Below the pieces are notes generated by a model. That model saw only the letters and a program-made list of their open reading frames with translations. It had not been told where the DNA came from and did no database searches. The position numbers and the translations under genes were made by a program. Shown here piece by piece: positions 18,919 through 32,126 of a stretch of 32,126 nucleotides of DNA (positions within the stretch are counted from its first letter, which is position 1; each line of letters begins with the position of its first letter). The DNA is from Streptomyces griseus. Its GTDB lineage: Bacteria > Actinomycetota > Actinomycetes > Streptomycetales > Streptomycetaceae. The DNA lies in the NCBI GenBank assembly GCA_002154345.1, contig MUNB01000167.1, forward strand, positions 1 through 32,126. Reading direction: 5' to 3'.

Positions 18919-19465
18919 GAGCGGCGCACAGAGCACCGAGACTCAGAACACAGAAAAGGGTCCGGAAGATGTTCACCGGCACCCAGACCGATTTGAAGTC
19001 GTCGATCACCGCGTGCACGTCCTGGGCGGACGCGGAGCCGCCGAGCGCCGCGAGGTCCGCGTTGAGGGGAAGGTTGACCGCGACGGTGACGACGAGCACC
19101 AGCAGATAGCAGAGTGCCGCGGCGGCCAGCGGCAGGGCCACCGCGCGGCGCTTGCGGCGGAAGGCCACGATCGCGGCGGCGACCGTGAGCCCCAGCGTGG
19201 CGAGGAAGACCAGGCCGAACAGCGCGCTGCCGTCGATCGCCGCGTTGAACCGCTGCATGGCCGCCGCGTAGGCGGCGTCGTCCAGCTCGGCCAGGCCCGG
19301 CATCACCGAGATGTCGTAGGCGAAGAACAGCCCCGCCATCAGCCCCGTGCAGAGCACGGATGCCACGAGGAGCGGCGCGGTGATCCGGTCACCGGCGGGC
19401 GGATGCCCGCCGGGCCGGACCGGGCCGGCCTGGTACGGGGTGGCATGGGGAGGGTAATGGCTCAT
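18878..19465 (-). CDS. DUF1772 (anthrone-oxygenase-like) membrane protein
   Basis: 195 residues with four membrane helices. The family signature is visible in GLMAGLFFAYDISVMPGLAELDD followed by AMQRFNAAI, then LATLGLTVAAAIVAF, a third helix ALCYLLVLVVTVAVNLPLN and a final helix with NIFRTLFCVLS. A few DUF1772 members act as cofactor-free anthrone oxygenases or demethoxylases in polyketide pathways; most have no known role. The ATG at 19465 has AGGA 7 nt upstream. It lies 150 nt downstream of the cluster's last clear gene in the same direction, so it may be the final cluster gene or a flanking gene. Confidence 0.8.
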   Translation of the reverse strand: MSHYPPHATPYQAGPVRPGGHPPAGDRITAPLLVASVLCTGLMAGLFFAYDISVMPGLAELDDAAYAAAMQRFNAAIDGSALFGLVFLATLGLTVAAAIVAFRRKRRAVALPLAAAALCYLLVLVVTVAVNLPLNADLAALGGSASAQDVHAVIDDFKSVWVPVNIFRTLFCVLSLGALCAALLRYGKPETPVLR

Positions 19466-19615: not shown

Positions 19616-20557
19616 TCACCCCCGGCCGCCGGAGGAGGCCGCCAGGCACTCCTCCAGGAACGCCAGCGCCCGTGCGTGGTAGAGCGGGGCGGCCAGCCCG
19701 AGGCTGAGGTTGTGTCCGGCCTCCGGCAGGCGTTCGACGGCCGGGCGGCGCGTGCCCGTGAAGCTCGCGGCCACCGCGGCCAGTTCGTCCCGGTCCAGGC
19801 GCCACCAGCCCTCGTACGCGCCGAAGGTGAGGCGTACCGGGCAGCGCACCCGGGCGGCGGCCGCCGGGAACCGGGCGGGCCACCGCCCCGTCTCCGCCTC
19901 CTCCGCGGCCGGAACCTCACGGAGGAGGGCACGGCTGGCCCGGAAGGTGCCGCCCGGATAGAGGCGCAGCGGCCCCCAGTTGAGCTCTCCCGCCCCGCCG
20001 GCCAGCGTGTCCGGGAAGTGGGCGGCGGCCGGTGCGTAGTGCCAGCCGCAGCCGTTGAGGTCGAGCCCGAGCAGGCGGTCGGCGGGGGTCGCCCCGGTCC
20101 AGGGCTCCCCTGCCAGGTGCAGGGCGGTCTTGCCGCCGTCGGAGTGTCCGAGCAGGAAGAACCCGGCCCCGACCGGGTGGAGTCCGGCGTAGTCGGCGAG
20201 CGATCGGCGCAGCAGCCGGGCCTGTTCGGCGAGCGGCAGACCGTGCGGGAGGGCGGCGCGGGAGAGACCGTAGCCGGGCCGTTCCACCGCGAGGACCGTG
20301 TGGCCGAGCGAAGTGGCGAGGGCGAGGAGCGAGGTGTGCGGGGCGACCGGTCCGGCGAAATAGCCGGGTGACATGGCCCGGCCGTGGACGGCGACGAGTA
20401 CCGACCTGGGCGCGCCGGTGGCCGGTTCGGCCCGCCAGGCGCCGAGGCGGTGGCGGCCGTGGCCCAGCACGATCTGTTCCACCCCGCCCGGAGCGACGTC
20501 GTGCCCGGCCGCAGTGAGGTCCGCCGTGGCCACCGACTCCGTCGGCGCGGCGCTCAC
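19616..20557 (-). CDS. Alpha/beta hydrolase
   Basis: 313 residues from the GTG at 20557, which overlaps the trpC-like stop (GTGA). The fold is shown by VLVAVHGRAMSPGYFAG (oxyanion strand-turn), the nucleophile elbow FLLGHSDGGKTAL with Ser, RLTFGAYEGWW near the acidic residue and a terminal EAGHNLSLG with His. No lid or signal peptide is seen, so it is cytoplasmic. Translational coupling to the pathway genes argues that it is part of the pathway, perhaps releasing a product from the carrier protein or hydrolysing an intermediate. The exact substrate cannot be inferred. Confidence 0.85.
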   Translation of the reverse strand: MSAAPTESVATADLTAAGHDVAPGGVEQIVLGHGRHRLGAWRAEPATGAPRSVLVAVHGRAMSPGYFAGPVAPHTSLLALATSLGHTVLAVERPGYGLSRAALPHGLPLAEQARLLRRSLADYAGLHPVGAGFFLLGHSDGGKTALHLAGEPWTGATPADRLLGLDLNGCGWHYAPAAAHFPDTLAGGAGELNWGPLRLYPGGTFRASRALLREVPAAEEAETGRWPARFPAAAARVRCPVRLTFGAYEGWWRLDRDELAAVAASFTGTRRPAVERLPEAGHNLSLGLAAPLYHARALAFLEECLAASSGGRG

Positions 20558-21366
20558 GCGGGCACGTCCTCGGCCTCGTCGGCGACCGCGGGGCCGGTCA
20601 CGGGGGCGGGGTGCGGCAGGACCGGGAGCGCTTCGACGGTGAGCGGCACCGTGACCCGCCCGGTCTCCTCGGTGCCCGCGGCGCGGTGTGCGTCGAACTC
20701 GGCCAGCCAGGCGTCCACGCTCGGCGCCCGCAGCAGCGCGGTCCCGATGAGCAGGCCCCGGTAGCCCTCGGCCAGCAGACCGGCGGCGGTGGCGGGGTCG
20801 CCCACCGCGCTGGCGCTGACCGGGCAGAGCGTGCCCGCGGCCCGTACGGCGGGCAGCAGCGCACGGCTGCGGTCCAGGTCTCCGGCACCCCGTTCGCGAG
20901 CGGTGATGTCCTTGTTGTTGACGGCGACCACGCAGTCCTGCGGGTCCGGCAGACCGATCGCCTCCTCGACGTCGGTGATCTCCACGAACGGGGTCATCCC
21001 GTGCGCCCGGCATGCGCGGGCCAGGTCGTGCAGGGACTCCCGGGGCAGCAGCGCCGCGGTCAGCAGGACCGCCGAGACGCCCGCTCGGGCGGCGGCGGTG
21101 ATCTGATCGTGCCGGGTCACGAAGTCCTTGAGCAGCACCGGGACGTCCACGCGGGCCGTCACCTCGTGCAGCATGGCGGCCGAACCGCCGAACCAGCGGC
21201 CGGTCACGACGGACACGCACGGGGCTCCGGCCCGCTGGTAGGCGGCGGCGATGTCGCCGGGGGCGCGGCCCCGCAGCAGGTCGGCGCCGTGCGCGTCGCG
21301 GGACTTCACCTCCATGATCACGGGACGGTCCGCGCCGAGGAGCGCGGAGAGGAAGGGCTGCGTCAT
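20554..21366 (-). CDS. TrpC-like (indole-3-glycerol-phosphate synthase paralogue), probably altered specificity
   Basis: 270 residues. The (beta/alpha)8 barrel and most catalytic residues of indole-glycerol-phosphate synthase can be aligned: Glu19 and Lys21 in VIMEVKSR, Lys80 in VLLKDFV, Glu129 in PFVEITD and Asn150 in VAVNNKD, with the phosphate loop GLLIGTALLR. Differences are strong. The N-terminal segment of about 45 residues that covers the active site in normal enzymes is missing; the SPS after the first Lys is replaced (DAHGAD); the Glu of the usual ESG is Ala (SASAV). There is also a 50-residue Pro/Ala-rich C-terminal tail. It may cyclise a modified carboxyphenylamino-deoxyribulose-phosphate analogue. 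The gap to the TrpF-like gene is 48 nt. Confidence 0.85.
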   Translation of the reverse strand: MTQPFLSALLGADRPVIMEVKSRDAHGADLLRGRAPGDIAAAYQRAGAPCVSVVTGRWFGGSAAMLHEVTARVDVPVLLKDFVTRHDQITAAARAGVSAVLLTAALLPRESLHDLARACRAHGMTPFVEITDVEEAIGLPDPQDCVVAVNNKDITARERGAGDLDRSRALLPAVRAAGTLCPVSASAVGDPATAAGLLAEGYRGLLIGTALLRAPSVDAWLAEFDAHRAAGTEETGRVTVPLTVEALPVLPHPAPVTGPAVADEAEDVPA

Positions 21367-21414
21367 CGGGCTTTCCTCACGAAGTGGCGGGCTTCTCTTG
21401 CGGGGCGGGGGACG

Positions 21415-22107
21415 TCACGGCGCGGGGGCGGGTGTGCCGGTCCAGGCGCGGTCCAGCGCGGCGACCCGGGCCGGGTCGAGGAGGCCGGCGTCCGCACGGG
21501 CGGCATGGTCGATGTCGACGCCCCGGAACCCCGGGTGCGCGGCGAAGGCGTGACCCGGTGCGTCGGCCTCGCCGAGGCCGCCCGCGAGGAGGAACGGCCG
21601 GGGCAGGACGGGCAGCAGGGCCTCCAGCGCCTCGGCCGGCACGCGGTGGCCGGTACTGCCGACCGCCCCGCCCCGGGTCGCCGCGTCGACGAGGAACAGG
21701 TCCGCTCCGGCGCGGGCGTACGCCGTCAGGAACGGCCGCTCGACGCACGCCCCGTCAAGAACGTGCACGGCCTTGACCAGCACCGCGTCGGGAAGGGCCG
21801 CGCGCAGGGCGGCCACGGCCGCGGGCGGCTGGTAGGCGTGGAGCTGGATCCAGCGCACCCGGGCGGCGCGGGCGGCCGCGGCGATCCGTTCGGCGTCGTG
21901 CAGGAAGGTGACGAGCACCGGCTCGGCCCGGCCCGCCGTGCGGACGGCGCCGGCCAGTTCGGTCAGTCGATCGCCGGTCAGATCGCGGGCCCCGTTCTCC
22001 ACCCCGTACCAGAGGCCGACGAGATCGGCCCGTGGCGCGACGGCGGCGGCCTCCTCGGGGGCGGTGGCGCCGCACACCTTGAGCAGCGGCCGGGGCGGGG
22101 TGCTCAT
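21415..22107 (-). CDS. TrpF-like (phosphoribosylanthranilate isomerase paralogue)
   Basis: 230 residues, barrel of the TrpF family. Cys12 in LLKVCGAT is the expected general base and Asp141 in DLFLVDA the general acid; the WIQLHAY and LLAGGLGEAD strands match QLHG and AGGL of normal enzymes. The last phosphate-binding turn, normally VDVSSGVE, is VDIDHAAR, so the Ser-Ser-Gly and Glu are lost. Normal TrpF isomerises phosphoribosylanthranilate by Amadori rearrangement. Streptomycetes generally lack TrpF and use the dual enzyme PriA, so a separate TrpF here points to a pathway of its own. ATG overlaps the upstream stop by 4 nt. Confidence 0.85.
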   Translation of the reverse strand: MSTPPRPLLKVCGATAPEEAAAVAPRADLVGLWYGVENGARDLTGDRLTELAGAVRTAGRAEPVLVTFLHDAERIAAAARAARVRWIQLHAYQPPAAVAALRAALPDAVLVKAVHVLDGACVERPFLTAYARAGADLFLVDAATRGGAVGSTGHRVPAEALEALLPVLPRPFLLAGGLGEADAPGHAFAAHPGFRGVDIDHAARADAGLLDPARVAALDRAWTGTPAPAP

Positions 22108-23249
22108 CCGCCCAGCCCCAGGGCCGAGGCGACGTGGTTGTACTGGATGTCGTTGGTCCCGGAGTAGAGGGTGCCCGCGACCGCGGCGCGTACCTCCTTC
22201 TCCAGACCGACCTCGGCGAGGTAGCCCGCGCCGCCGAAGACGCGGACCGCCGAGAGGCTGGTGGACAGGGCGGCCTCGCTGGCGAGGATCTTGGTGATGG
22301 CGAGGTCGGCGGTGACGTCCTCGCCCGCGGCGAGCCGCTCGGCGGTGTCGTAGAGCCACTTGGCGGCGGTGTCGGTGCGGATCTTCATGTCGACCACGCG
22401 GTGCGAGACCGCCTGGTAGTCGCCGATGGGGTGGCCGAAGGCCCGGCGTTCCCGGGCGTAGCCGACGGTGCGCTCCAGCCGGTGGCGCATCTCGCCGAGC
22501 TGGACGGTGAAGCCGAACAGGATCTCGCGCTTCATCACATGGTCCAGGACGAGCAGTCCGCCGCCGACCCGGCCCAGCACCCGGTCGGCGGGTATCCGGC
22601 AGCCGTCGAGGTGGAGGGTGGACAACGGGGCGGTGCGCAGGCCCATCTTGGCGGTCGTCCCGCCGACGGAGAGCCCGGGGGTGTCCCGGTCGACGAGGAA
22701 GGCGGTGGTGCCGAGCGGTCCGCCCTCCGGTCGGGTACGCGCGTAGACGACGAAGACGTCGGCGATGGGGCCGTTGCTGACGAAGGCCTTGCCGCCGGTG
22801 AGGACGTAGTGCGTGCCGTCGCGCTCGGCACGGGTGGTCATCGCCATGGCGTCGGATCCGCTGTCGGGCTCGGTGATGGCGTGCGCGCCGATCAGCTCGC
22901 CCGAGCAGATGCCGGGCAGATAGCGCTCGCGCAGGGCGTCGCTGCCGAAGGCGGTCAGGGGGACGCCGGTGCTGGCCATCGACGTGGTGGCGCAGAAGTT
23001 CAGCCCGGACTCCCGGCAGGTCTCGCCGAGGGTCTCCAGGACGTGCAGGGTGGTCAGGAGGGACTGGCCCGCGCCGCCCCACTGTTGGGGGAACGGCAGG
23101 CCGAGGACTCCGCTGTCGGCGAGGGACCGCCAGCGGTCCGGTTCGAACGCGGACCGGGCGTCCGCCTCGATGTGTCCTTCGCTCAGGATCTTGCCCCACT
23201 GGGCCATGCCGGCGCAGAGCGCCTGCTGATCCGCGTCGCGGTTTCTCAT
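22104..23249 (-). CDS. Acyl-CoA-dehydrogenase-fold flavoprotein with unusual active site
   Basis: 381 residues, full-length family member. The FAD-binding block AITEPDSGSDAMAM (about 125-137), the TGGKAFVSNGPIADVF strand, RERRAFGHPIGDYQAV and VRVFGGAGYLAEVGLEKEVR are typical. The catalytic Glu is not where expected: the Y-E-G-T position is Tyr-Ser-Gly-Thr (Ser363), and the alternative helix-G position (as in isovaleryl-CoA dehydrogenase) appears to be Lys240 in VMKREIL, with a Glu two residues on. It may oxidise a carrier-bound aminoacyl group, as the relatives PltE and RedW do with prolyl-carrier protein, or do other flavin chemistry. GGAAGG lies 7 nt before the ATG. Confidence 0.88.
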   Translation of the reverse strand: MRNRDADQQALCAGMAQWGKILSEGHIEADARSAFEPDRWRSLADSGVLGLPFPQQWGGAGQSLLTTLHVLETLGETCRESGLNFCATTSMASTGVPLTAFGSDALRERYLPGICSGELIGAHAITEPDSGSDAMAMTTRAERDGTHYVLTGGKAFVSNGPIADVFVVYARTRPEGGPLGTTAFLVDRDTPGLSVGGTTAKMGLRTAPLSTLHLDGCRIPADRVLGRVGGGLLVLDHVMKREILFGFTVQLGEMRHRLERTVGYARERRAFGHPIGDYQAVSHRVVDMKIRTDTAAKWLYDTAERLAAGEDVTADLAITKILASEAALSTSLSAVRVFGGAGYLAEVGLEKEVRAAVAGTLYSGTNDIQYNHVASALGLGG

Positions 23250-23337
23250 GGCGGAGCCTTCCGTACGGGCCGTGCGGGTGGCCTCGGTCGATGACGGGCG
23301 GAGAGGTGACGGCGGTGTCCCGTCGTCATCAGGTCGG

Positions 23338-23362
23338 CGGGCGCCCGTGGTTCAGGCGCCCG
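23338..23362. repeat. Hairpin in the gap between the EctC-like and dehydrogenase genes
   Basis: CGGGCGCC (23338-23345) pairs with GGCGCCCG (23355-23362) around a 9-nt loop. It lies in the 144-nt gap 23250-23393, the longest inside the otherwise tightly packed operon. A weaker bulged inverted repeat (GATGACGGG with CCCGTCGTCATC) lies near 23290-23330. It could be an internal terminator, an attenuator or an mRNA-stability element. Confidence 0.45.
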
Positions 23363-23393
23363 TCGGGTGAGCGGCTGTGCGGCCCGGACAGGC

Positions 23394-23768
23394 CTAGTAG
23401 GCCGAGGAGACGCCCTCGGCCAGGCTGTGCACCTCGTCGCCCTGGAGCGCCGGGGCGAAGACGCAGACCAGACGCAGGTCCTCGTGCGGCGAGGCGATCA
23501 GGAAGTGCGGGTCGTTGTTGTCGAGCGAGTAGAGGACGCCCGGCGTCAGCGGATGACTGGTGCCGTCGAGTTCCACCACCTCGCCGGAGCCCTCGATGCA
23601 GTAGCAGGTCTCCAGGTGGTTGCGGTACTCCAGGCGGGACTTGGTCCCGGCCCGCACGGTGGTGTCGGTGACGCTGTAGCCCAGGCCGTCGGCGTCCAGG
23701 ACGAATCTGCGGCTGAGTCCGTTGCCCCAGTCGACGGTCTTGACGGTCTCGATGTTACGGATGAGCAC
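23394..23768 (-). CDS. EctC-like cupin (ectoine synthase homologue)
   Basis: 124 residues; the ectoine synthase cupin is recognisable along its whole length: LGYSVTDTTVRAGTKSRLEY, RNHLETCYCIEGSGEVVELDG, LTPGVLYSLDNNDPHFL and RLVCVFAPALQGDEVH. The probable iron ligands are Glu53, Tyr80 and His88. EctC closes N-acetyl-diaminobutyrate into ectoine, a cyclic amidine, by losing water. No ectA, ectB or ectD is near; it lies between TrpA-like and dehydrogenase genes. I infer cyclodehydration of a pathway intermediate, possibly to an amidine. The start is GTG at 23768, 5 nt after a very strong AAGGAGGA, and overlaps the TrpA-like stop by 14 nt. Confidence 0.9.
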   Translation of the reverse strand: MLIRNIETVKTVDWGNGLSRRFVLDADGLGYSVTDTTVRAGTKSRLEYRNHLETCYCIEGSGEVVELDGTSHPLTPGVLYSLDNNDPHFLIASPHEDLRLVCVFAPALQGDEVHSLAEGVSSAY

Positions 23769-24594
23769 GGGTGTCCTCCTTCGGACGGGCGGTGTGGGGA
23801 CGGCCGAGGGCGGCGACGAAGGAGCGGTAGCCGTCGACCGGGTCGGACCCGGCCTCCAGACTCCGTTCCACCGCGGCCACTCCGGCGGAGCCGACGATCG
23901 CCGCGTCCGCGCCGCTGCGGGCGACGGAGGCGAGATCCTCGGCGGTGGACACCCCGAAGCCGACGGCTATCGGGGAGGCGGTGAGGTCGCGCAGGGCGGC
24001 GACGGTCGGCGCCAGACCGGCGTGGCCGCCGTCGGGCGTTCCGGCGCCGCTGCGCCCGTAGCGCGCGACCAGGTAGAGGTATCCGGTGGCGTGGGCCGCC
24101 GCCTCGGCGACGGTGGCCGGTGCGCTGGCCGGATAGCAGGTGGTGACCTCGGGCAGGCCCGCCGCGTGCAGCGCCTCGTGGTGGGCCTGCCGCAGCCGGG
24201 GCGGCAGGCCGTGGGCCAGCAGGGCGTCGGCTCCGCTGTCCGCGACGGCACGGGCGTAGTCGGCGGGCGCGGCGGTGCGCAGGCTGTGGCTCCAGTCGGC
24301 GAGCACCGCGATCCGCAGCCGCTTCAGCCCCGGCCGTACGGCGGCGACGAAGTCCAGGGTCTCGCGCAGCCCGACGCCCCGGGTCAGCGCACGGTCGGCG
24401 GACCGGCGCACGACGGGCCCGTCGGTGGGCGAGTCGGGGAAGGGGACGGCCAGTTCGAGGCAGTCGACGCCCGACGCGTCCAGCTGCGCGACGAGGTCGG
24501 TGAGGACGGGCAGCGGCGGGTCGCCCGCGTTGAGGAAGACCGCCAGGCCCAGCTCCTCGCGGGCGCGGGCCTCGGCGAAGAATTCATCCGGCAC
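23755..24594 (-). CDS. TrpA-like (tryptophan synthase alpha paralogue)
   Basis: About 279 residues from the GTG at 24594, 9 nt after GGAAGG; a GTG at 24603 is also possible. The catalytic pair of TrpA is kept: Glu47 in LELAVPFPDSPTDGP and Asp58 in the same block. The strands AVFLNAGDPPLPV, VGFGVSTAEDL and AIVGSAGV match the family. Loop 6, usually containing a GVTG motif that closes the site and talks to TrpB, is instead ARYGRSGAGTPDGG. Normal TrpA splits indole-glycerol phosphate into indole and glyceraldehyde-3-phosphate. No trpB is present, so this copy may release the free heterocycle, as plant BX1 does. It overlaps the TrpD-like gene by 11 nt. Confidence 0.85.
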   Translation of the reverse strand: MPDEFFAEARAREELGLAVFLNAGDPPLPVLTDLVAQLDASGVDCLELAVPFPDSPTDGPVVRRSADRALTRGVGLRETLDFVAAVRPGLKRLRIAVLADWSHSLRTAAPADYARAVADSGADALLAHGLPPRLRQAHHEALHAAGLPEVTTCYPASAPATVAEAAAHATGYLYLVARYGRSGAGTPDGGHAGLAPTVAALRDLTASPIAVGFGVSTAEDLASVARSGADAAIVGSAGVAAVERSLEAGSDPVDGYRSFVAALGRPHTARPKEDTRAHP

Positions 24595-25606
24595 GGCCCG
24601 CACCCTTCCCCTTCAGTCGGTCCAGCAGGTCGAGCGCCGCCCCGTCGTCGAGCGCGGCGCCCGCCTCGGCGACCGCTTTCGCCCAGTCGTCGCGGTGACC
24701 GGCCGCCAGGGCGAGCGCGGCCGCGTTGAGCTGGAGGGTGGCGCGCAGGGGACCGCCCGCCCGGCCGGCGAGGACGGTACGGAAGTGCTCGGCGGCGGCC
24801 TCCCGGGGGACGGGGGCGAGATCGTCGGGTGTTCCGTCCGCGGGGACGAGGTCGCCGGCGCGGAGTGTCAGAGTGCCGCCGTCGGGGAGGTGGACCGTGT
24901 TGTCGCAGATGCTGAGGAGTTCGTCGGCGCCGAGCGGGTTGGTCACCAGCCAGGTCGCCGGGGCGCCGGGCCGGGCGGCCAGGGCCCGCAGGGCGGGCGG
25001 GACGCGGCCCCCGCTGACGCCGGTGACCTGGGCGGCCACCGGGACGGCCGCGAGGAACGGGCCCAGGGTGTTGAGGAACCGGCCGAACACCCGCATGGGC
25101 GTGGGCACGGCCAGCAGGGCGAGCCGGGCCAGCTGCACGGGGTAGACGAACGGCCCGGTGAAGACGATGCCGTGGGCGTCCAGTTGGCCGGACGCCTGGT
25201 CGAGGGAGGCGGCGAACGGGACGCCGAGCCGGTCCAGGAGGTCGACCGAACCGGTGCGCGCGGTGTGGGCGCGGGAGCCGGACTTGACGACCCGGACCCC
25301 GCAGGCGGCGGCGACCAGCGCGGCGGCCGTGGACAGGTTCACGGTGGGCGGACCGCCGCCGGTGCCCACCACGTTCACGGTGCCGGGCCAGGGCGTCGCG
25401 GGCCGCGCGGGCCGCCGCCGGTCCAGCGCGTCGAGCAGGGCGAGCAGGCTGTCCTCCTCGGGCAGGGCCGCGGTGAGGGAGGCGAGGAGCGCCAGCGCGT
25501 CACCGCGGTCCAGTGCTCCGTCGGCCAGCGCCTGCCAGAGTGCGTCCCACTGCTCGGGGCCGGCCGGGGCGCGCCGGTCGACCATCGGGACGAGGGCCGG
25601 GTGCAC
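24584..25606 (-). CDS. TrpD-like (anthranilate phosphoribosyltransferase paralogue)
   Basis: 340 residues, the usual length. The PRPP loop GTGGGPPTVNLSTAAALVA (81-99) and an Asp-Glu pair in GADELLSI (metal binding) are kept. The acceptor-site motif, normally KHGNR, is KSGSR (108-112), and the following Ser-rich loop reads HTARTGSVD. These changes lie where anthranilate binds, so the acceptor may be another aminated carboxylate. Normal TrpD joins anthranilate to PRPP. The GTG start at 25606 has GGGAGG 7 nt upstream and comes 3 nt after the carrier-protein stop, so the two are tightly coupled. Confidence 0.87.
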   Translation of the reverse strand: MHPALVPMVDRRAPAGPEQWDALWQALADGALDRGDALALLASLTAALPEEDSLLALLDALDRRRPARPATPWPGTVNVVGTGGGPPTVNLSTAAALVAAACGVRVVKSGSRAHTARTGSVDLLDRLGVPFAASLDQASGQLDAHGIVFTGPFVYPVQLARLALLAVPTPMRVFGRFLNTLGPFLAAVPVAAQVTGVSGGRVPPALRALAARPGAPATWLVTNPLGADELLSICDNTVHLPDGGTLTLRAGDLVPADGTPDDLAPVPREAAAEHFRTVLAGRAGGPLRATLQLNAAALALAAGHRDDWAKAVAEAGAALDDGAALDLLDRLKGKGAGRAG

Positions 25607-25609
25607 GGC

Positions 25610-25873
25610 TCAGCCTCCCGTGGCGGCGGTGCTCCGGGAGCGCGCGATGTAGGCGTCGATGGCGTTGACGCTGCGGAAGTTCTCGGGGTCGAGGTCGGTG
25701 TCGCCGACCGCCAGCCGGAAGTGGTGCTCGACCCAGGCGATCAGCTTGAGGACGCCGAGGCTGTCGAGCGCGCCGTCGGCCAGGAGGTCCATGTCGTGCG
25801 GGAGTTGGGAGGGGGTGAGGTCGGGAAGGAACTCCCGGACGATGTACTCGCTGATCTGGTCGGCGTTGCTCAC
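25610..25873 (-). CDS. Free-standing acyl/peptidyl carrier protein
   Basis: 87 residues, four-helix carrier-protein fold. Ser38 in LLADGALDSLGVLKLIAWVE is the phosphopantetheine site. The protein is acidic with a short flexible end. It is followed 3 nt later by the TrpD-like gene and preceded (96 nt gap) by the adenylation enzyme, which probably loads it. The GTG start at 25873 has AAGGAG 6 nt upstream. It likely carries the aminoacyl or acyl unit used by the ketosynthase or the flavoprotein. Confidence 0.93.
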   Translation of the reverse strand: MSNADQISEYIVREFLPDLTPSQLPHDMDLLADGALDSLGVLKLIAWVEHHFRLAVGDTDLDPENFRSVNAIDAYIARSRSTAATGG

Positions 25874-25969
25874 GGGGTGCTCCTTGGCGGGTTGCTCGTA
25901 CGGGGTTCTCGGGTGGCGCGGGGCCCGCCGGCGGCTGCCGGGCGGTCCGCGGAGGACGGTCGGTCCGGG

Positions 25970-27469
25970 TCAGGACGCGGTGGCGGCGGGTGCGGCCGCG
26001 GTCCGCGTGATCGCGCGGCGGTCCACCTTGCCGGTGCTGGTGCGCGGCAGGGGCTCGGTCACGGGGACGAGGAGGCCCGGTACCCAGCCGCGGGCCAGCC
26101 GGGCGGTGCAGTGCCGTTTGAGGTCGAGGCTGTTGGCGGTGGAGCCGTCCTTCAGCCGTACGACGGCGATCAGACGGCGGCCCTCGACCGGGTCGGGGAC
26201 GGTGGTCACCCCGGCCTCCAGCACCTCGGGGTGTTCCAGCAGCACCTGTTCGACCTCGCCGGTGTTGACGGCGACGCCGCGGATCTTCACCTGGTGGTCC
26301 AGCCGGCCGACGAGCCGGAGAGTGCCGTCCTCGTCCTGCTCGACCAGGTCGCCGGTGCGGAACCACCGGGTGCCCGGACCGCCGTCCGCCGCCGGGTCCA
26401 GGACGAACTTCTCGGCGGCCCGGCGCGGATCGGCGTAACCGGTGCTCTGGAAGGGGGTGGAGACCTCCAGTTCGCCGCGTCCGGGCCCGGTCAGCAGCCG
26501 GCCGTCGGAGTTCCGCAGCCTCAGGCGTACGCCGGGGAGCGGGCGGCCCAGCGGCATCGGGGCGGACTGCGGGAGGCTCCGGTCGACCTCGTGGATCAGG
26601 CTGTCGTTGGTCTCGGTGCAGCCGTAGATGTTGTGCAGCCGGGCGCCGGGGGCGAGGTCCATGAGTTCGGCGAGCGCCTGCTCGGGCATCACGTCGCCGG
26701 TGAACGCCGCGTGCCGGACGGTCTCCAGCGGGCCGCCGCCCTCCACCCGGACCTGGGTGCCGACCAGGGCGTAGAAGAGCGGGACCGCCTGGACCACCTC
26801 GACGCGGTGGGTGCGCAGCAGGCGCAGGAGCCCCCGGCCGCTGGCCGCCGTCGCCGGGTCCACCAGGACCACCTGGCCGCCGTGGGCGAGGGTGGTCCAG
26901 ACGTCGAGCAGGCAGAGGTCGAAGTTGAGCGGGGCGTAGTTGAGCACCGGGGTGGTCTCGGCGATGCCGAAGGCGTCCGCGGCCCAGCCGGTGAAGGCCT
27001 CCACGGACCGGTGCGGCAGCGGGACCGCCTTGGGGATGCCGGTGGAGCCGGAGGTGGTCAGGACGAGGGCGGTGCCCGGCGGCACCGCTCCCCCGCCGCG
27101 CTCGCCGTGCTCCGGATCCCTCGCCGTGACGGCAGGACCGGCGAGCGCGTACCGGCAGCCCGCCTCCGCCATCACCGCCGCGACGTGGTCGGGCGGCAGG
27201 GTGGGCGAGGGCAGCAGTGCGGGGCGGCCGGTGGCCAGGCAGGCCAGGACGGTGGCGACGGTGCCGGGCGACTTCTCGTCGAGCACGGCGACCGTGGCCC
27301 CGGCGGGGACGTGTTCGGCGAGCCGGGCGCGGGCGGCGGCGGTCGCGTCGGCCAGTTCCCGGTAGCTGGTGGGGCTGCCGTTCCACCACAGGGCGGGGGC
27401 GTCCGGGGTCTTGTCGGCCCAGCGGAGTACGGATTCGGCGGTCTCGCCGTGGCGGTCGGTCCGGGTCAT
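25970..27469 (-). CDS. Free-standing amino-acid adenylation enzyme
   Basis: 499 residues, ANL superfamily, with no carrier or condensation domain. Core motifs: LVLTTSGSTGIPKAVPLPHR (A3, 135-154), NFDLCLLDVW (A4), IYGCTETNDS (A5), TRWFRTGDLVEQDEDG (A7), LVGRLDHQVKIRG (A8) and a terminal PRTSTGKVDRR with the catalytic Lys. Asp184 in the A4 block takes the place of the Asp that binds the alpha-amine in NRPS domains, so the substrate is probably an amino acid. The following Leu residues resemble the Asp-Leu-Leu start I recall for stand-alone prolyl ligases such as PltF and RedM, but I cannot assign the substrate with confidence. ATGA overlap with the dehydratase gene. Confidence 0.9.
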   Translation of the reverse strand: MTRTDRHGETAESVLRWADKTPDAPALWWNGSPTSYRELADATAAARARLAEHVPAGATVAVLDEKSPGTVATVLACLATGRPALLPSPTLPPDHVAAVMAEAGCRYALAGPAVTARDPEHGERGGGAVPPGTALVLTTSGSTGIPKAVPLPHRSVEAFTGWAADAFGIAETTPVLNYAPLNFDLCLLDVWTTLAHGGQVVLVDPATAASGRGLLRLLRTHRVEVVQAVPLFYALVGTQVRVEGGGPLETVRHAAFTGDVMPEQALAELMDLAPGARLHNIYGCTETNDSLIHEVDRSLPQSAPMPLGRPLPGVRLRLRNSDGRLLTGPGRGELEVSTPFQSTGYADPRRAAEKFVLDPAADGGPGTRWFRTGDLVEQDEDGTLRLVGRLDHQVKIRGVAVNTGEVEQVLLEHPEVLEAGVTTVPDPVEGRRLIAVVRLKDGSTANSLDLKRHCTARLARGWVPGLLVPVTEPLPRTSTGKVDRRAITRTAAAPAATAS

Positions 27470-28311
27470 CGGCCCGCTCCCGTCCCGGGGCCCAGCCGGA
27501 GCCAGCCGCCCTTGACGGCCGCGGCGCCCCCGGACCGTACGGTGAAGGCGACGGTGTCCCCGGCGGAGGAGGGCGTGAGGTCGAGGGTCGTTGCCTCGCC
27601 GGGCAGGACCGGGCGGGCGAAGCGCGCGCCGATCGCCCGGACCCGGTCGACGTCTCCGTCCGCGTACCGTTCGGCGGCCTCCTCCACGGCGAGTGCCACG
27701 AGGCTCATGCCGTGGGCGATGACATCGGCGAACCCGGCCGCCCGGGCGGCCTCCGGGTCGAGGTGGACGGGGTTGAGGTCGCCGGCCGCGTGCCCGTAGT
27801 CGGCTATCCACTCGCGGTCGATCGTGAGGTCGCGGCTGACGGTGTCGCCCGGTGTCTGTGGACGCGCCGATGCCGTGGGGACGAGGGTGCCGTGCGGTTC
27901 GGCCGCTCGGATGCCGGCGAGCAGGATGTGGGCGGTGAGCCGGGCCTGTTCGGCGCCGGTCGCCCGGTCGGTGAGTGTGGTGGTCAGGACGAGCCGGGTG
28001 CCCTTGGCCTCGACGCGTACGGCGTCGAGTGCGGCGGACGCGTCGAGCGGGGCGCCGGGGCGCGGCGGGTGGTGCAGCTCGATCTCCTGGGCGAGGTGGA
28101 CCAGCGAGTACGGGCCGTGGCCGGCGGCGAGGCCGGCGACCGTGCGCTCGGCGAGCGGATGGGTGAGGACGAAGGCGGCCAGCGGCCCCGCCGCGGCCCG
28201 GCCGGGTGCCGGGCGGGCCAGCGCCCGGCGGGTGACGGTGCGGTGGCGGTGAGCGGCGGCCGCGTCGAGGAGCGGTGCGGACGGGGCGGGCGCGGAGGCG
28301 GGGGTCGTCAT
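27466..28311 (-). CDS. MaoC-type (R)-hydratase/dehydratase
   Basis: 281 residues, a double hot-dog protein. The C-terminal half carries the hydratase-2 motif YGHAAGDLNPVHLDPEAARA with Asp178 and His183 as the catalytic pair, followed by VIAHGMSLVALAVEE. The N-terminal half is a degenerate hot-dog without that motif. Such enzymes add or remove water from 3-hydroxyacyl/enoyl thioesters. Beside the ketosynthase and carrier protein it probably dehydrates a carrier-bound beta-hydroxy acyl chain. No ketoreductase is in the operon part seen here. Both ends overlap neighbours by 4 nt, so it is fully coupled. Confidence 0.87.
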   Translation of the reverse strand: MTTPASAPAPSAPLLDAAAAHRHRTVTRRALARPAPGRAAAGPLAAFVLTHPLAERTVAGLAAGHGPYSLVHLAQEIELHHPPRPGAPLDASAALDAVRVEAKGTRLVLTTTLTDRATGAEQARLTAHILLAGIRAAEPHGTLVPTASARPQTPGDTVSRDLTIDREWIADYGHAAGDLNPVHLDPEAARAAGFADVIAHGMSLVALAVEEAAERYADGDVDRVRAIGARFARPVLPGEATTLDLTPSSAGDTVAFTVRSGGAAAVKGGWLRLGPGTGAGR

Positions 28312-29567
28312 GCGGGGGTCACCACCAGGCTGCTGTTGTGGCCGCCGAAGCCGAAGGAGTTGGTCAGCGCGGGGCCGGTGGGGACAGGCCGCGGGGTGCC
28401 GTGGACCACGTCGATCTCCATCTCGGGTTCCGTTCGTGTGTGGTTGGCGGTGGGCGGCACCGCACCGGCGTTCATCGACAGCACGGCGACCACGAGTTCG
28501 ACGGCTCCGGCCGCTCCGATGAGGTGGCCCAGCACGCCCTTGCTGGCGGTGACCGGCGGGCCGTCCGGCCCGAACACCTTGGCCAGGGCGGTGGCTTCGG
28601 CGCGGTCGTTGTGCACGGTGGCGGTGCCGTGGGCGTTGACGTGGGCGATGTCCGAGGGGGCGAGACCGGCGTCGGCGAGCGCGCCGGTCATGGCTTCGGC
28701 GGCGTACGCCCCGTCGGGGTGCGGGGCCGAGAGGTGGTGGGCGTCCGAGGTGGCGGCGTATCCGGCGACCAGGCCGTGCGCCCGGCCGCCCCGGGCGCGC
28801 ACGTCGGCCGCCCGCTCCAGCACCACGAAGGCGGCGCCCTCGCCCATCACGAAGCCGTCCCGGCTCTCGTCGAACGGCCGGCACGCGGTGGCCGGTTCGG
28901 TGCGCAGGGAGGCGGCGTTGAGGTTGCCGAACCCGGCGAGGGTGATCGGGGTGAGGGTCGCCTCGCAGCCGCCCGCGATCACCACGTCGGCGCGGTGGTC
29001 GCGGAGCATGGCCGCGCCGATCCCGATGGCGTCGGCCCCGCTGGCGCAGGTGGTGGAGACGGTGAGCGCCGGTCCGTGCCAGCCCAGTTGGAGGGCGATC
29101 TGGGCGGCGGCGGCGTTCGGCATCGTCATCAGGGGCATCAGCGGGCGGACCCCGCCGGGCCCCTTCGCCGCGAAGTTGACGGACTCGGCGTCGCTGGTGC
29201 TGCGGCCGCCGACGGCGTTGCCGACGACGATGGCGCAGCGGGCGGCGGGCGCCTGCGGCAGCCCGGCGTCGGCGTGGGCGGCCAGCGCCGCGGCGAGCCC
29301 GTAGCGGGCGAAGGGGTCGAGCCGCCGGGCCGCCTTGCCGGCCAGCGCCTCCTGCCAGGGCAGGCCGTGGCCGGTGAGCTCGGGCACCCGGCAGCCGATC
29401 TTGATGCGGTGGCCGGTGGTGTCGAAGTGGGTGAGGCCGACCGCGAGGGACCGGCCCGCCGACACCGCGGTCCACAGGTCCTCGGTGGTGAGTCCGGCCG
29501 GGGTGACGGCGCCGATCCCGCTGATGGCGATGTCCGGCCGGGCGGAGCGTTCCGCTTCGGTGCGCAT
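28308..29567 (-). CDS. Beta-ketoacyl-ACP synthase, FabF type
   Basis: 419 residues, full-length KAS II fold. The Cys-His-His triad is intact: Cys174 in TVSTTCASGADAIG, His313 in NAHGTATVHND and His348 in KGVLGHLIGAAG. The terminal TNSFGFGGHNSSLVV is typical. It should perform decarboxylative Claisen condensation of a malonyl-carrier unit with an acyl or aminoacyl thioester. No chain-length-factor partner, with its Cys-to-Gln change, lies next to it, so this is not a type II KS-alpha/CLF pair as far as can be seen. A purine-rich AAGGAA precedes the ATG. Confidence 0.93.
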   Translation of the reverse strand: MRTEAERSARPDIAISGIGAVTPAGLTTEDLWTAVSAGRSLAVGLTHFDTTGHRIKIGCRVPELTGHGLPWQEALAGKAARRLDPFARYGLAAALAAHADAGLPQAPAARCAIVVGNAVGGRSTSDAESVNFAAKGPGGVRPLMPLMTMPNAAAAQIALQLGWHGPALTVSTTCASGADAIGIGAAMLRDHRADVVIAGGCEATLTPITLAGFGNLNAASLRTEPATACRPFDESRDGFVMGEGAAFVVLERAADVRARGGRAHGLVAGYAATSDAHHLSAPHPDGAYAAEAMTGALADAGLAPSDIAHVNAHGTATVHNDRAEATALAKVFGPDGPPVTASKGVLGHLIGAAGAVELVVAVLSMNAGAVPPTANHTRTEPEMEIDVVHGTPRPVPTGPALTNSFGFGGHNSSLVVTPA

Positions 29568-29660
29568 GGTCCGTGTGGTTCCTTCCCGTTCCGGTGACCG
29601 GCCGTCGGCCGTGGACGAGGTCGCCGCGCTCGCGTGGGTGCGTGGGCGGCGCGGGCGGTG

Positions 29661-30875
29661 TCAGCCCGTCAGCAGGCCGCACTCTCCGGCGGCCTTGAGG
29701 AACGCCTCGGCGGCGAGGTCCACGTCCGCTTCGGTGTGCCGTGCGGTGACGGCGATCCGCAGCCGGGCCAGGTCGCGCGGTACGGCGGGGGTGACCACGG
29801 GCAGCCCGATCACGCCCAGCCGACGGGCGGTGGTGGCCAGGTCGTAGGCCGACTCGTCGCTGCCCGCGATGAGCGGCACGACGGCGGTCTCGCTGTCGCC
29901 GGTCCGCATGCCGCCCGCGGTCACCAGCTCCCGGAACCGGGCTCCGTACCCCTGGATGAGGGCGACGCGCTCCGGTTCGGCCCGCAGCACGCGCAGCGCC
30001 TCCAGGGCGGCGCCGGCCGAGGCGGGCGCGAGGGCGGCGGAGAAGAGGAACGGCCGTGCGGCGTACCGGAGATGGCCGATCAGCTCGGACGACCCCGCGA
30101 CCCAGCCGCCCATGGAGGGGATGGCCTTGGACAGGGTGCCGAGCTTGACGTCCACCCGGACCCGCCGGTCGAAGTGCTCCTCCACGCCCAGGCCGGTGCG
30201 GCCGATGACGCCGAGGGCGTGGGCCTCGTCGGCCATCAGGAGCGCCTCGTGGGCGTCGCAGACCTCGCGGAGCCGGGGCAGCGGCGCGATGTCGCCGTCC
30301 ATGGAGTAGACGCTGTCGACGATGACCAGACGGACTCCGCCGGGGGCGGCGGCCTCCATGCGGCGGGCCAGGTGCTCGGTGTCGTTGTGCCGGAACCGGA
30401 CCACGGTCGCCCCGCTGAGGCGGCAGCCGTCCACGATGCTGGCGTGGGCGTACTTGTCGACGAAGACGGTGTCGCCGGGGCCGACCAGGGCTCCGATCGT
30501 GCCCACGTTGGCGGCGTAGCCGGAGCCGAAGACGATGGCGGACTCCCGCTCGGCGACGGTGGCGACCTCGTCCTCCAGCTCCTCGTGGAGCGGGATGGAC
30601 CCGGCGAGGGCGCGTACTCCGTGGTTGCCGGTGCCGTAGCGGGCGGCGGCGGCCTGGGCGGCGGCGACCACGCGCTCGTCGCCGGCCAGCCCCAGGTAGC
30701 TGTAGCCGGACATCATCAACAGGCGGCGGCCGTCGAGGTCGACGTAGGCGGTGTCGCGCTCGGCGGTGTAGGGGACGAAGCTGTTGCGGCGCTCGGGATC
30801 CGACTCCAGCGAGGCCACGCGCCGCCCCGTCGCCTCCAGTTTGTGCGCGATTCTCCCCCACGCTGCGGATGCCAT
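29661..30875 (-). CDS. Alpha-oxoamine synthase (AONS/ALAS/KBL family)
   Basis: 404 residues. PLP-dependent fold-type I enzyme that condenses an amino acid with an acyl-CoA or acyl-carrier thioester with loss of CO2, giving an alpha-amino ketone. Visible: MMSGYSYLGLAGDERVV, GVRALAGSIPLHEELE, IVDSVYSMDGDIAPL, DEAHALGVIG (cofactor Asp216 and His219), and Lys250 in LGTLSKAIPSMGG as the Schiff-base lysine. It is first in the operon. ATG at 30875 is chosen for its AGAGGA 8 nt upstream; ATG at 30890 has no site. Relatives in prodiginine pathways (PigH) extend pyrrolyl-ketoacyl chains with serine. Confidence 0.9.
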   Translation of the reverse strand: MASAAWGRIAHKLEATGRRVASLESDPERRNSFVPYTAERDTAYVDLDGRRLLMMSGYSYLGLAGDERVVAAAQAAAARYGTGNHGVRALAGSIPLHEELEDEVATVAERESAIVFGSGYAANVGTIGALVGPGDTVFVDKYAHASIVDGCRLSGATVVRFRHNDTEHLARRMEAAAPGGVRLVIVDSVYSMDGDIAPLPRLREVCDAHEALLMADEAHALGVIGRTGLGVEEHFDRRVRVDVKLGTLSKAIPSMGGWVAGSSELIGHLRYAARPFLFSAALAPASAGAALEALRVLRAEPERVALIQGYGARFRELVTAGGMRTGDSETAVVPLIAGSDESAYDLATTARRLGVIGLPVVTPAVPRDLARLRIAVTARHTEADVDLAAEAFLKAAGECGLLTG

Positions 30876-30902
30876 CGGCCGTCCTCTCATTGGTGACTGC
30901 CA

Positions 30903-30918
30903 TTGCACACGGGTGCAA
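30903..30918. promoter_or_regulatory. 16-bp palindrome in the leader of the biosynthetic operon
   Basis: TTGCAC (30903-30908) and GTGCAA (30913-30918) are perfect inverted arms around ACGG. The site lies between the predicted -10 box and the start of the alpha-oxoamine synthase gene, where a repressor could block transcription. The binder is not identifiable from this window. Confidence 0.45.
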
Positions 30919-30937
30919 CGAATCTGATCCGGCTCGA

Positions 30938-30969
30938 ATTCAACGGGCCACTCGCAATCGAGGCGCAAC
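30938..30969 (-). promoter_or_regulatory. Candidate SARP-type promoter of the biosynthetic operon
   Basis: Read on the minus strand, heptamers GTTGCGC (30969-30963) and ATTGCGA (30958-30952) are direct repeats 11 bp apart. Exactly 8 bp after the second comes TTGAAT (30943-30938), a usable -10. This 11-bp repeat with 8-bp spacing to the -10 is the known layout of SARP binding sites. There is no good -35, also usual for SARP-activated promoters. The message would start near 30931, leaving a leader of about 56 nt. Confidence 0.55.
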
Positions 30970-31025
30970 ACGGGAGCAAGATCAAACAGTCATCGGAGGA
31001 TTTGCCTGTGCCGGGGACTCTGATT

Positions 31026-31044
31026 CATCAGGCGTTAACTGATG
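31026..31044. promoter_or_regulatory. Inverted repeat upstream of the SARP promoter
   Basis: CATCAG (31026-31031) and CTGATG (31039-31044) are perfect inverted arms with a 7-bp centre. The repeat lies 16 bp before the TTGACA box of the SARP gene, so it could be an operator for that promoter. Short arms make chance occurrence possible. Confidence 0.35.
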
Positions 31045-31060
31045 CAACTTAATGGGGTAG

Positions 31061-31088
31061 TTGACACACACTCTTTTTGAACGAGAAT
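31061..31088 (+). promoter_or_regulatory. Promoter of the SARP gene
   Basis: TTGACA at 31061-31066, a 16-bp spacer and GAGAAT at 31083-31088 form a sigma-HrdB-like promoter in the most AT-rich part of the window. The transcript would start at about 31095, giving a long leader of roughly 195 nt before the GTG at 31292. Within that leader I see no clear riboswitch or open frame. Confidence 0.5.
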
Positions 31089-31291
31089 GCTGTTTACTCA
31101 GCCGTGGAGAAGAATTGACCAAGCTCCTTCCGGATCACCGCAGCCCTCCCACGGGATCCTCACGTGCGCCACTGGGCACACGAGCCACACGCTGAGGTCC
31201 ACGCACGGAACCGCACGCACGCCAGACAGTCGACTTCCGTCACTCATGCCGCCGAGGAAGTCGCCGCAACCTCTTCTTGGGGGGATCGATC

Positions 31292-32098
31292 GTGCTCATC
31301 AGGCTTGTCGGCCTCGTCTCCATCGAACATGAATCCGAAGCCCCGCGGGTGCTGGCCAGTCATCAGGCACAGATCGCCTTGGCCCGGCTCTGCCTGGAAC
31401 GTCCCTCCGGCATAGGCCGGGAGCAACTCGCCGACACCATATGGCCGGACGGCCTGCCCAGCACCTGGGCCTCGGCATTACGCAGTGTCGTCAGTCGTCT
31501 CAGAGCCTCCCTCTCGGAGGGGGCGAGCGCCGAGCCGGCGGTGATCGCCCACGGCGGACGCTATCTGCTGCGACTGCCGGAGGACGCCCAGGTGGACGTG
31601 GAGCGCGCGGAGCAGGCCGCGTTCACCGCCGCCGTCGCCCACCGCGAGGGCGACCACAGCACCGCGCAGCGGCTCGCGACCACCTCCGTGTCCTTGCTGC
31701 GGGGCCCGTTCCTGGCCTCCCACGAGGGCGAGTGGGTGGAGTCCGTCCGGCGTCACCTCAAGGATCTGCGGGTCTCGGCCCTGGAGACCGCGAGCAGTTC
31801 CTCGTCCGCTCTCGGCGACACCCACCACGCCCTGCGGTACGCCGCGGAGGCGGTGCGCCAGGCGCCGTTCCGGGAGAGCGCCTACCGCTGCCAGATGACC
31901 GCGCACCGGCTGGCCGGCAACCGGGCCGAAGCCCTGCGGATATACCAGCAGTTGCGCGTCGTCCTCGCCGAGGAGCTGGGCTGCGACCCCAGTCCGGAGA
32001 GCGAGGCCGCCTACCTCGGCCTGCTGGACCGGACCCGGCTGCCGGGCGCCCCGCTCCGGACGGAGTGGGAAACGATGTCAACCCACCGGCTGAGCTGA
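31292..32098 (+). CDS. SARP-family pathway activator with a TTA codon
   Basis: 268 residues, the short SARP type (ActII-ORF4/RedD-like) with no NB-ARC or TPR extension. The N-terminal OmpR-like winged helix runs to about residue 95 (REQLADTIWPDGLPSTWASA, LRSVVSRLRASL, HGGRYLLRL). The bacterial transcriptional activator domain (about 100-250) follows, with DVERAEQAAFTAAV, LLRGPFLA, LRYAAEAVRQAPFRE and QLRVVLAEELGCDPSPESEA. GTG at 31292 has GGGGGGA 6 nt upstream and starts at the conserved LIRLVGLV; a TTG at 31277 overlaps that site and is rejected. Codon 63 (31478-31480) is TTA, read by the bldA tRNA. It is divergent from the biosynthetic operon, which it probably activates. Confidence 0.93.
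   Translation: MLIRLVGLVSIEHESEAPRVLASHQAQIALARLCLERPSGIGREQLADTIWPDGLPSTWASALRSVVSRLRASLSEGASAEPAVIAHGGRYLLRLPEDAQVDVERAEQAAFTAAVAHREGDHSTAQRLATTSVSLLRGPFLASHEGEWVESVRRHLKDLRVSALETASSSSSALGDTHHALRYAAEAVRQAPFRESAYRCQMTAHRLAGNRAEALRIYQQLRVVLAEELGCDPSPESEAAYLGLLDRTRLPGAPLRTEWETMSTHRLS
31478..31480 (+). promoter_or_regulatory. TTA codon (bldA control point) in the SARP gene
   Basis: The in-frame leucine codon TTA at position 63 of the SARP is the rare codon that streptomycetes read only with the developmentally controlled bldA tRNA. I noticed no other in-frame TTA in the cluster genes. The pathway could thus be delayed until development begins. Confidence 0.85.
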
Positions 32099-32126
32099 TC
32101 CCCGGCACGGCAGTGGGGAGGGACGC

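Follow-up and report, generated by a model that had tools for sequence, protein, structure and literature searches.

A predicted glutamine-derived pyrrolopyrrole cassette, shared with kosinostatin clusters, beside ketosynthase and oxoamine synthase genes in Streptomyces griseus

Introduction

What does a gene cluster make if it joins four tryptophan-type enzymes and a homologue of ectoine synthase (EctC) to an adenylation enzyme, a ketosynthase and an alpha-oxoamine synthase? The question is posed by a stretch of Streptomyces griseus DNA of 32,126 nucleotides (assembly GCA_002154345.1, contig MUNB01000167.1; 'the window' below), which is the entire contig C76 of a 7.8 Mb genome in 846 contigs (C, G and L numbers are our handles for contigs, genomes and loci). 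Twelve genes form a minus-strand operon, 30875-19616, with a gene for an activator of the Streptomyces antibiotic regulatory protein (SARP) type divergent from it; an initial annotation, made from the sequence alone, had described this arrangement, and Pfam and NCBIfam matches with a frame check confirmed it. Read from 30875, the operon encodes an alpha-oxoamine synthase (AONS), a FabF-type ketosynthase (KS), a MaoC-type dehydratase, a free-standing adenylation (A) enzyme, a carrier protein (PCP), TrpD-, TrpA- and EctC-like proteins, an acyl-CoA-dehydrogenase-like flavoprotein (ACAD), homologues of phosphoribosylanthranilate isomerase (PRAI) and indole-3-glycerol-phosphate synthase (IGPS), and an alpha/beta hydrolase (Table 1).

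We propose, with a probability of about 60%, that the cluster makes a pyrrolo[2,3-b]pyrrole of the bicyclic amidine type on the carrier protein, from which a discrete fatty-acid-like system takes it over. That the heterocycle comes from glutamine is a strong inference from the enzymes compared below, and we hold it to be probable.

Results

Eight genes form the kosinostatin cassette

The kosinostatin producer Micromonospora okii TP-A0468 (L129; PMC8698034, cited like all papers here from excerpts) carries the A, PCP, TrpD, TrpA, EctC, ACAD, PRAI and IGPS genes, ordered as they are in the window, and a type II KS gene lies 10 kb away; a search of its draft genome gave one EctC homologue. All eight genes were also found in S. 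spiroverticillatus (L118) and Nocardiopsis alkaliphila (L119), named in the excerpts as carriers of kosinostatin clusters. Disruption of ksnC3, the PRAI gene, abolished kosinostatin in S. albidoflavus, according to an excerpt of PMC13099267. The codes of the A enzymes are DLLLATIDSK in the window, DLLMVTLDSK in L129 and DLLLVTVDSK in L118, and the active-site signatures are common to both cluster types. From these comparisons the identity of the eight genes with the kosinostatin pyrrolopyrrole cassette appears secure, and the window's heterocycle is very probably that of kosinostatin; the kosinostatin lead of the initial annotation was right for eight of its twelve genes. To our knowledge, the pyrrolopyrrole ring system occurs in quinocyclines only.

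A contig scan with an EctC alignment found 413 relatives, and the 80 most similar to the window's EctC were retained; with four plasmid loci they make a sample of 84 loci, in which shares do not represent natural frequencies because of this ranking, and in which some strains occur twice (e.g. L064/L120, L091/L095). The core genes were found in 75 (A), 79 (PCP), 77 (TrpD), 78 (TrpA), 84 (EctC), 81 (ACAD), 76 (PRAI) and 75 (IGPS) loci. All eight were present in 69 loci, with the same order and strand in 67 of the 69. As the same set recurs in order in dozens of loci, its assembly in the window is beyond chance.

By bit-score thresholds of our own, 37 of the 84 loci have AONS, KS and MaoC, as the window has (class I), and six have KS and MaoC with no full AONS match; two have MaoC only, three have no Trp gene and 36 are of other kinds, several of them on incomplete contigs. 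These class counts are lower bounds, short contigs (e.g. L065-L067, L070, L074, L082, L085, L087) being incomplete; L117 was placed among the loci with no AONS only since its AONS match is partial. This locus (G178:C175, S. durocortorensis) is closely related to the window's cluster; its AONS match stops half way, with no SARP match after it, and it is rearranged or misassembled. In a FastTree phylogeny of seven concatenated proteins with 70 tips, the chain-type loci (45 tips, counting the window, L138 and the incomplete L087) split from the rest with support 1.0. Joining of the cassette to KS and oxoamine synthase genes, which the initial annotation took for an unusual combination, is thus real, though shared by the 37 class I loci rather than unique.

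The kosinostatin and quinocycline clusters (kst, ksn) share with the window's class the eight heterocycle genes in the same order, but have a type II KS with chain-length factor (KS/CLF), whereas the window's class has SARP, AONS, KS and MaoC genes and a second operon described below, and is without a transglutaminase-like gene. In the stretches fetched for the 37 class I loci, no type II KS-alpha match of 500 bits was seen. Among the ORFs and queries searched for a type II KS/CLF by the cassette, the window and C191:1-14000 gave chain-builder genes only. We had doubted that the second kind of cassette locus belongs to type II polyketide synthase (PKS) clusters, TcmI-type cyclases (PF04673) being found in 12 of 16 genomes and none of them near the cassette by the listed coordinates; the doubt was dropped because KS/CLF/acyl carrier protein annotation in S. 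xanthii and KS-alpha searches show that several of these loci are type II PKS clusters.

A route from glutamine

Every substrate and reaction in the following scheme is a prediction. The A enzyme would load L-glutamine, or its cyclic amidine, onto the PCP (cyclisation and loading may come in either order), and the EctC homologue would condense the alpha-amine with the side-chain amide, losing water, to yield 5-amino-1-pyrroline-2-carboxyl-PCP, whose acyl group is an amidine counterpart of proline. The RedW/PigA-like flavoprotein would oxidise this to 5-aminopyrrole-2-carboxyl-PCP, and the TrpD-like enzyme would phosphoribosylate the exocyclic amine with phosphoribosyl pyrophosphate (PRPP). The PRAI-like enzyme would carry out the Amadori rearrangement; the IGPS-like enzyme would close the second ring at the unsubstituted pyrrole carbon next to the amine, with loss of water and no CO2; and a retro-aldol split of glyceraldehyde-3-phosphate by the TrpA-like enzyme would leave 1,6-dihydropyrrolo[2,3-b]pyrrole-2-carboxyl-PCP. 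Ketoacyl-ACP synthase III (KASIII), acyl carrier protein (ACP), short-chain dehydrogenase/reductase (SDR), MaoC and KS could build or extend an acyl chain that the oxoamine synthase would condense with an amino acid, and the product might be tailored by Baeyer-Villiger monooxygenase (BVMO)-like and flavin adenine dinucleotide (FAD) oxidases, a methyltransferase and hydrolases.

The second operon and the fate of the thioester

The window is one arm of a larger SARP-linked biosynthetic cluster. Its end coincides with the start of contig C191 of the same genome (Table 1), and both the window and C191 align colinearly, at 92-93%, with the chromosome of G005, which has no break there. A second operon lies beyond the SARP gene at C191:112-8519. 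Three Streptomyces strains have annotated plasmids that encode, on the far side of the SARP gene, an SDR, a KASIII, a small carrier protein (annotated hypothetical, with a DSL motif), a CMAS-like methyltransferase, a flavoprotein resembling flavin-dependent monooxygenases and BVMOs, a cytokinin-dehydrogenase-like FAD protein, an SRPBCC protein and an alpha/beta hydrolase, with a phosphopantetheinyl transferase (PPTase) in two of the three. Nine second-operon proteins of these plasmids all have homologues on C191:112-8519, at 50-80% identity. A unit ending at the SARP gene, as first described, thus stands as an operon though not as the extent of the cluster; the search for sequence beyond 32126 yielded the C191 overlap, which adds ACP, KASIII, SDR, methyltransferase, flavoenzyme and PPTase genes. 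SARP homologues at 52-91% were found in 39 of the 40 chain-type loci listed (L117 being the exception), and at 59-93% in another comparison. A second homologue of the BVMO-like flavoprotein (53-54%), with adjoining SDR and hydrolase matches, lies elsewhere in the genome (L151, C306:12000-25482).

Does this system take over the pyrrolopyrrole from the PCP? That the KS/oxoamine-synthase system uses the PCP thioester directly falls just short of an even chance in our estimate. The pyrrolopyrrole could instead be cut off the PCP and coupled later, with KASIII, KS, MaoC and oxoamine synthase making a separate aminoketone chain, a serious contender that we place somewhat below even odds. The KS is FabF-like and not PigJ-like (68 bits with the PigJ-type model, cut-off 900), the KASIII, ACP and SDR of the second operon resemble a self-sufficient chain builder, and the operon ends with an alpha/beta hydrolase, a homologue of which is present in the fetched locus of 22 of the 37 class I loci. 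Yet a transglutaminase-like gene, taken as that of the release enzyme and present in 17 of the 41 other loci, occurs in none of the 43 chain-type loci; because of this absence the thioester may stay on the PCP for the KS or the oxoamine synthase.

The EctC homologue

All 84 EctC homologues keep the metal ligands E57, Y84 and H92 as well as W21, R25, T40, Y52 and F106, while the position of Asn38 is Thr in 83 and Cys in one (the scan selected by two patterns, which included W21 and H55/E57 and did not include Asn38, Y84 or H92). In ectoine synthase Asn38 binds the substrate carboxylate and is conserved in 437 enzymes, and a side reaction of ectoine synthase turns glutamine into a five-membered cyclic amidine (excerpts of PMC6344544, PMC5924519). 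Loss of the carboxylate binder fits a thioester substrate. The window's protein is thus like ectoine synthase in its cupin fold, metal site and catalytic residues, and differs from it in the Asn38 replacement, in its company with a carrier protein, and in that neither ectA nor ectB was seen among the neighbouring ORFs scanned; an ordinary ectoine synthase is encoded separately in the genome (contig C173). It is one of the orphan EctC proteins, a group with a function that the excerpts of PMC5924519 and PMC6344544 describe as unresolved.

Two more orphan EctC genes lie directly 5' of a type I PKS or non-ribosomal peptide synthetase (NRPS) gene, in Rhizobium gallicum (L156) and Mycetohabitans endofungorum (L157), which suggests carrier-bound amidine formation outside actinomycetes too.

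The adenylation enzyme and the flavoprotein

D235, D330 and S331 are each found in 75 of 75 A enzymes, and the DSLG serine in 79 of 79 PCP homologues. In A domains D235 holds the substrate alpha-amine, and the invariance of the three residues suggests that the substrate is an amino acid. The flavoprotein, with 365 bits for the RedW model and 338 bits for PigA (both below cut-off), has its best PDB matches in a prolyl-ACP dehydrogenase (4irn, 270 bits), 6cxt (deposited as butyryl-CoA dehydrogenase, 266 bits) and an L-prolyl-carrier dehydrogenase (5zw0, 242 bits), and judging from these matches is of the prolyl-carrier dehydrogenase lineage.

These residues bear on the published view of the heterocycle, in which nicotinic acid, once loaded on the PCP by A, is contracted to a pyrrole by other cassette enzymes, with the Trp-like enzymes supplying a ribose-derived ring. 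Nicotinate is stated for kstB/kstC in Table 5 of PMC7918784 and repeated in PMC5321127 and PMC8400222 (all excerpts), and the cassette is the same. We nevertheless consider this origin unlikely: nicotinate has no alpha-amine for the invariant D235 to hold, the flavoprotein is of prolyl-PCP lineage, and an amidine-forming EctC would have no clear job.

Slightly less probable still is a proline route as in prodiginines, where A and ACAD would make pyrrole-2-carboxyl-PCP and EctC would act elsewhere. In the prodiginine pathway (RedM/O/W or PigI/G/A, then PigJ/PigH) A and ACAD are of the same lineage as in the window, and both systems have a KS and an oxoamine synthase. The best single-stretch PDB chain for the window's A is indeed the L-proline ligase 6o6e (166.8 bits; the chains ranked higher are two-stretch sums over NRPSs), and ACAD is nearest to RedW, PigA and the prolyl-ACP dehydrogenase. 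But the window's A pocket has D330/S331 instead of the proline code, whereas V330 was present in five of five and C331 in four of five control A enzymes, the five controls coming from eight fetched loci of 21 genomes with a RedW-like match. Furthermore, pyrrole-2-carboxylate offers no exocyclic amine to the TrpD-like enzyme, and EctC stays in the company of A, PCP and ACAD even in loci without Trp genes. The window differs from the prodiginine pathway also by its added EctC and four Trp enzymes, by a FabF-like KS and by a BioF-like oxoamine synthase (no PigH model was among the matches listed for it, the presence of that model in the library being unchecked). The prodiginine alternative of the initial annotation was therefore half right: the lineages of A and flavoprotein stood, a PigJ-like KS did not.

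The tryptophan-type enzymes

In all 77 TrpD homologues the anthranilate motif KHGN is lost and K[ST]G[SA] stands instead. The 75 IGPS homologues keep E51, K53, K110 and E159 throughout and N180 in 72, with E210 replaced by Ala in 75 of 75; TrpA homologues keep E49/D60, and PRAI homologues C7/D126, wherever aligned. The roles of residues in A, TrpD, IGPS, TrpA and PRAI are common background, and that of Asn38 in EctC is taken from the papers above. Families and catalytic residues are thus those of TrpD-TrpF-TrpC-TrpA, whereas anthranilate recognition is lost, TrpB was not seen and the substrate would be an aminopyrrole on a carrier protein. A duplicated pathway for tryptophan, indole or an anthranilate-derived unit, to which the TrpD, F, C and A paralogues might point, is very improbable given the losses of KHGN and E210, a separate ordinary IGPS in the same genome (contig C339), no trpE, trpG or trpB among the selected ORFs scanned in the window (as the initial annotation had said), and the effect of the ksnC3 disruption.

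Complementary gene losses

Two genomes (G129, G174) hold a class I cluster without TrpA and PRAI (L041, L042) and a kosinostatin-like second cassette without IGPS (L048, L060). Whole-genome search of G174 gave one cassette-type place each for IGPS, PRAI and TrpA; that of G129 gave one place each, plus a mirrored copy at the opposite end of the chromosome. Both genomes also have ordinary IGPS and TrpA copies, which share 30-32% identity with the query. The class I cluster of G251 (L043) lacks A and PRAI, both of which are in the other cassette (L047), with PRAI nowhere else in the genome. As each cluster lacks cassette genes present in the other, the simplest reading of these gene contents suggests that the two clusters of G129 and G174 share enzymes and therefore one intermediate; on a pyrrolopyrrole as the product these losses bear indirectly. 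The neighbourhood of the second cassette of G129 (L048 with L053, L054) has kosinostatin-like helicase, transporter, aromatase/cyclase, FabG and methyltransferase genes.

Features of the window

Table 1. Features of the window with positions, strand and supporting evidence
Feature	Positions	Strand	Evidence
Contig end	32057..32126	.	70 bases equal to the start of own contig C191 (ends compared by eye)
SARP-type activator, BTAD domain	31277..32098	+	Pfam BTAD 1.7e-28; divergent from operon
Alpha-oxoamine synthase (AONS), BioF/SPT-like	29661..30875	-	TIGR00858 375 bits (cut-off 426 not reached); pyridoxal phosphate lysine 38/38
FabF-type ketosynthase (KS), Cys-His-Lys-His	28308..29567	-	TIGR03150 395 bits (cut-off 494 not reached); catalytic residues 43/43
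MaoC-type dehydratase, double hot-dog length	27466..28311	-	Pfam MaoC_dehydratas 8e-19; frame checked
Free-standing adenylation (A) enzyme, proline-ligase-like, code D-L-L-L-A-T-I-D-S-K	25970..27469	-	Pfam; PDB 6o6e; residues 75/75
Carrier protein (PCP), DSLG motif	25610..25873	-	NCBIfam ACP matches below cut-off; serine 79/79
TrpD-like phosphoribosyltransferase without anthranilate motif	24584..25606	-	Pfam 1.1e-31; KHGN replaced by K[ST]G[SA] in 77/77
TrpA-like lyase with E49, D60	23755..24603	-	Pfam 1.2e-42; TIGR00262 above cut-off; residues 76/76 where aligned, 2 gaps
EctC-like cyclase, metal ligands kept, Asn38 replaced by Thr	23394..23768	-	Pfam 1.8e-36; alignment to PDB 5onm; residues tallied in 84
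Prolyl-carrier-protein-dehydrogenase-like flavoprotein (ACAD)	22104..23249	-	NCBIfam RedW 365 bits (cut-off 650 not reached); PDB 4irn
PRAI (TrpF)-like isomerase with Cys7, Asp126	21415..22107	-	Pfam 3.3e-6; NCBIfam 3.3e-16, below cut-off; residues 75/75 where aligned, 1 gap
IGPS (TrpC)-like cyclase, E210 replaced by Ala	20554..21366	-	Pfam 4.6e-34; residues tallied in 75
Alpha/beta hydrolase, last gene of operon	19616..20557	-	Pfam Abhydrolase_1 1.6e-5, 25.2 bits (cut-off 25.8)
Anthrone-oxygenase-like protein, possible accessory gene just behind operon	18878..19465	-	Pfam 6e-13

All frames of the operon are open, with overlaps of 4-20 bases at six junctions and gaps of at most 144 bases (starts were chosen manually). 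The AONS ORF opens at 30971; its start is probably 30875, because distant homologues align over about 400 of 436 residues only. Pfam families matched on the minus strand were aminotransferase I/II, ketoacyl-synthase, MaoC, AMP-binding, Glycos_transf_3, Trp_syntA, Ectoine_synth, acyl-CoA dehydrogenase, PRAI and IGPS; Pfam gave no match for the PCP, and NCBIfam only the ACP matches below cut-off. A homologue of the anthrone-oxygenase-like protein, with at least 60 bits, lies somewhere in the fetched locus in 24 of the 43 chain-type loci. Farther on, at 17346-18611, a fused 3-oxoadipate enol-lactonase/4-carboxymuconolactone decarboxylase (PcaDC, 558 bits, cut-off 390) probably belongs to unrelated catabolism.

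An Rfam scan of the window gave no match. The repeat search between the AONS and SARP genes found only a 9-base and a 7-base pair and no convincing SARP box; a single sigma-70-like site lies there at 31061-31088.

Other cassette variants

Among 295 genomes of the genus, 17 (own genome included) have a TrpD-like match at E <= 1e-30. Five loci (L088, L123, L133, L153, L154) have A, PCP, EctC and ACAD with a transglutaminase-like gene and no TrpD/A/F/C match; the A gene of L153 is 3 kb off on the opposite strand, and a TrpB-like enzyme is present in all but L154. From their gene content, an aminopyrrole unit is the predicted product of these loci, possibly in the form of an aminopyrrolyl amino acid.

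In four loci (L100, L116, L134, L140) the cassette is joined by a TrpB-like enzyme (605 bits in L116, TIGR01415 cut-off 519) and a UbiD decarboxylase, as if for a pyrrolopyrrole analogue of tryptophan; PRAI and IGPS of L140 are below our thresholds. TrpB with UbiD would be expected beside a cassette whose product is a heteroaryl carboxylic acid, to be turned by decarboxylation into an indole-like nucleophile. L122 and L137, both with type II KS, have UbiD as well. In a further seven loci (L090, L095, L097, L121, L128, L130 and L152, the last being S. clavuligerus pCLA1) the cassette is followed by a glutamate/leucine-dehydrogenase-family gene, with an NRPS nearby in L152; the S. clavuligerus and Nonomuraea records are unannotated at the cassette.

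Discussion

Several points weigh against a glutamine-derived pyrrolopyrrole handed to a chain-building system. The A enzyme is nearest to proline ligases, and we know of no glutamine code that its code fits. The control A enzymes are presumably of the proline type, judged by their codes, and the dehydrogenases of the control loci reach 373-403 bits, under the RedW cut-off of 650, while the three loci fetched with a dehydrogenase over the cut-off gave no A match. Conservation of W21 and of H55/E57 in EctC was partly preselected by the scan patterns. The glutamine reaction of ectoine synthase is very inefficient, with an equilibrium that favours glutamine (excerpts of PMC6344544, PMC5924519), and nicotinic acid and ribose are the starting materials in the published model for kosinostatin (PMC7918784, PMC5321127, PMC8400222, likewise in excerpt). 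As for the gene losses, G129 and G174 share about 95% identity in that region and thus probably represent one event; simple decay of both clusters would give the same picture; no type II KS match above 28% was found in the approximately 60 kb around the second cassette of G129; and L064/L043 is a class I cluster with a match to neither A nor PRAI. Finally, KASIII, KS and MaoC look like ordinary chain builders, which makes use of the pyrrolopyrrole thioester by the KS a guess.

With these points taken into account, we tentatively put forward, at a little less than even odds, a larger claim: that the EctC homologue is a carrier-dependent glutaminyl cyclase in a portable route from glutamine and PRPP, correcting the nicotinate origin, and that the window's class joins the resulting thioester to a fatty-acid/oxoamine-synthase line, giving a new scaffold. 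The literature searched, closed journals lying outside the search, held no description of the glutamine route or of the window's class; nor did a cluster with the window's gene set and a known product, which the initial annotation had named as the finding that would speak against novelty, turn up there (MIBiG and closed journals being outside).

For orphan ectoine-synthase homologues the module suggests a function that can be tested, and for the kosinostatin heterocycle an equally testable origin other than the published one. 'Ectoine' labels of clusters may mark a pyrrolopyrrole module instead; in an excerpted report antiSMASH labelled a 158 kb region with the kosinostatin cluster of Micromonospora sp. 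28ISP2-46 as partly ectoine, the gene behind the label not being indicated. The pyrrolopyrrole module is spread over many actinomycetes in several cluster types, and there is thus probably a family of unexplored pyrrolopyrrole products.

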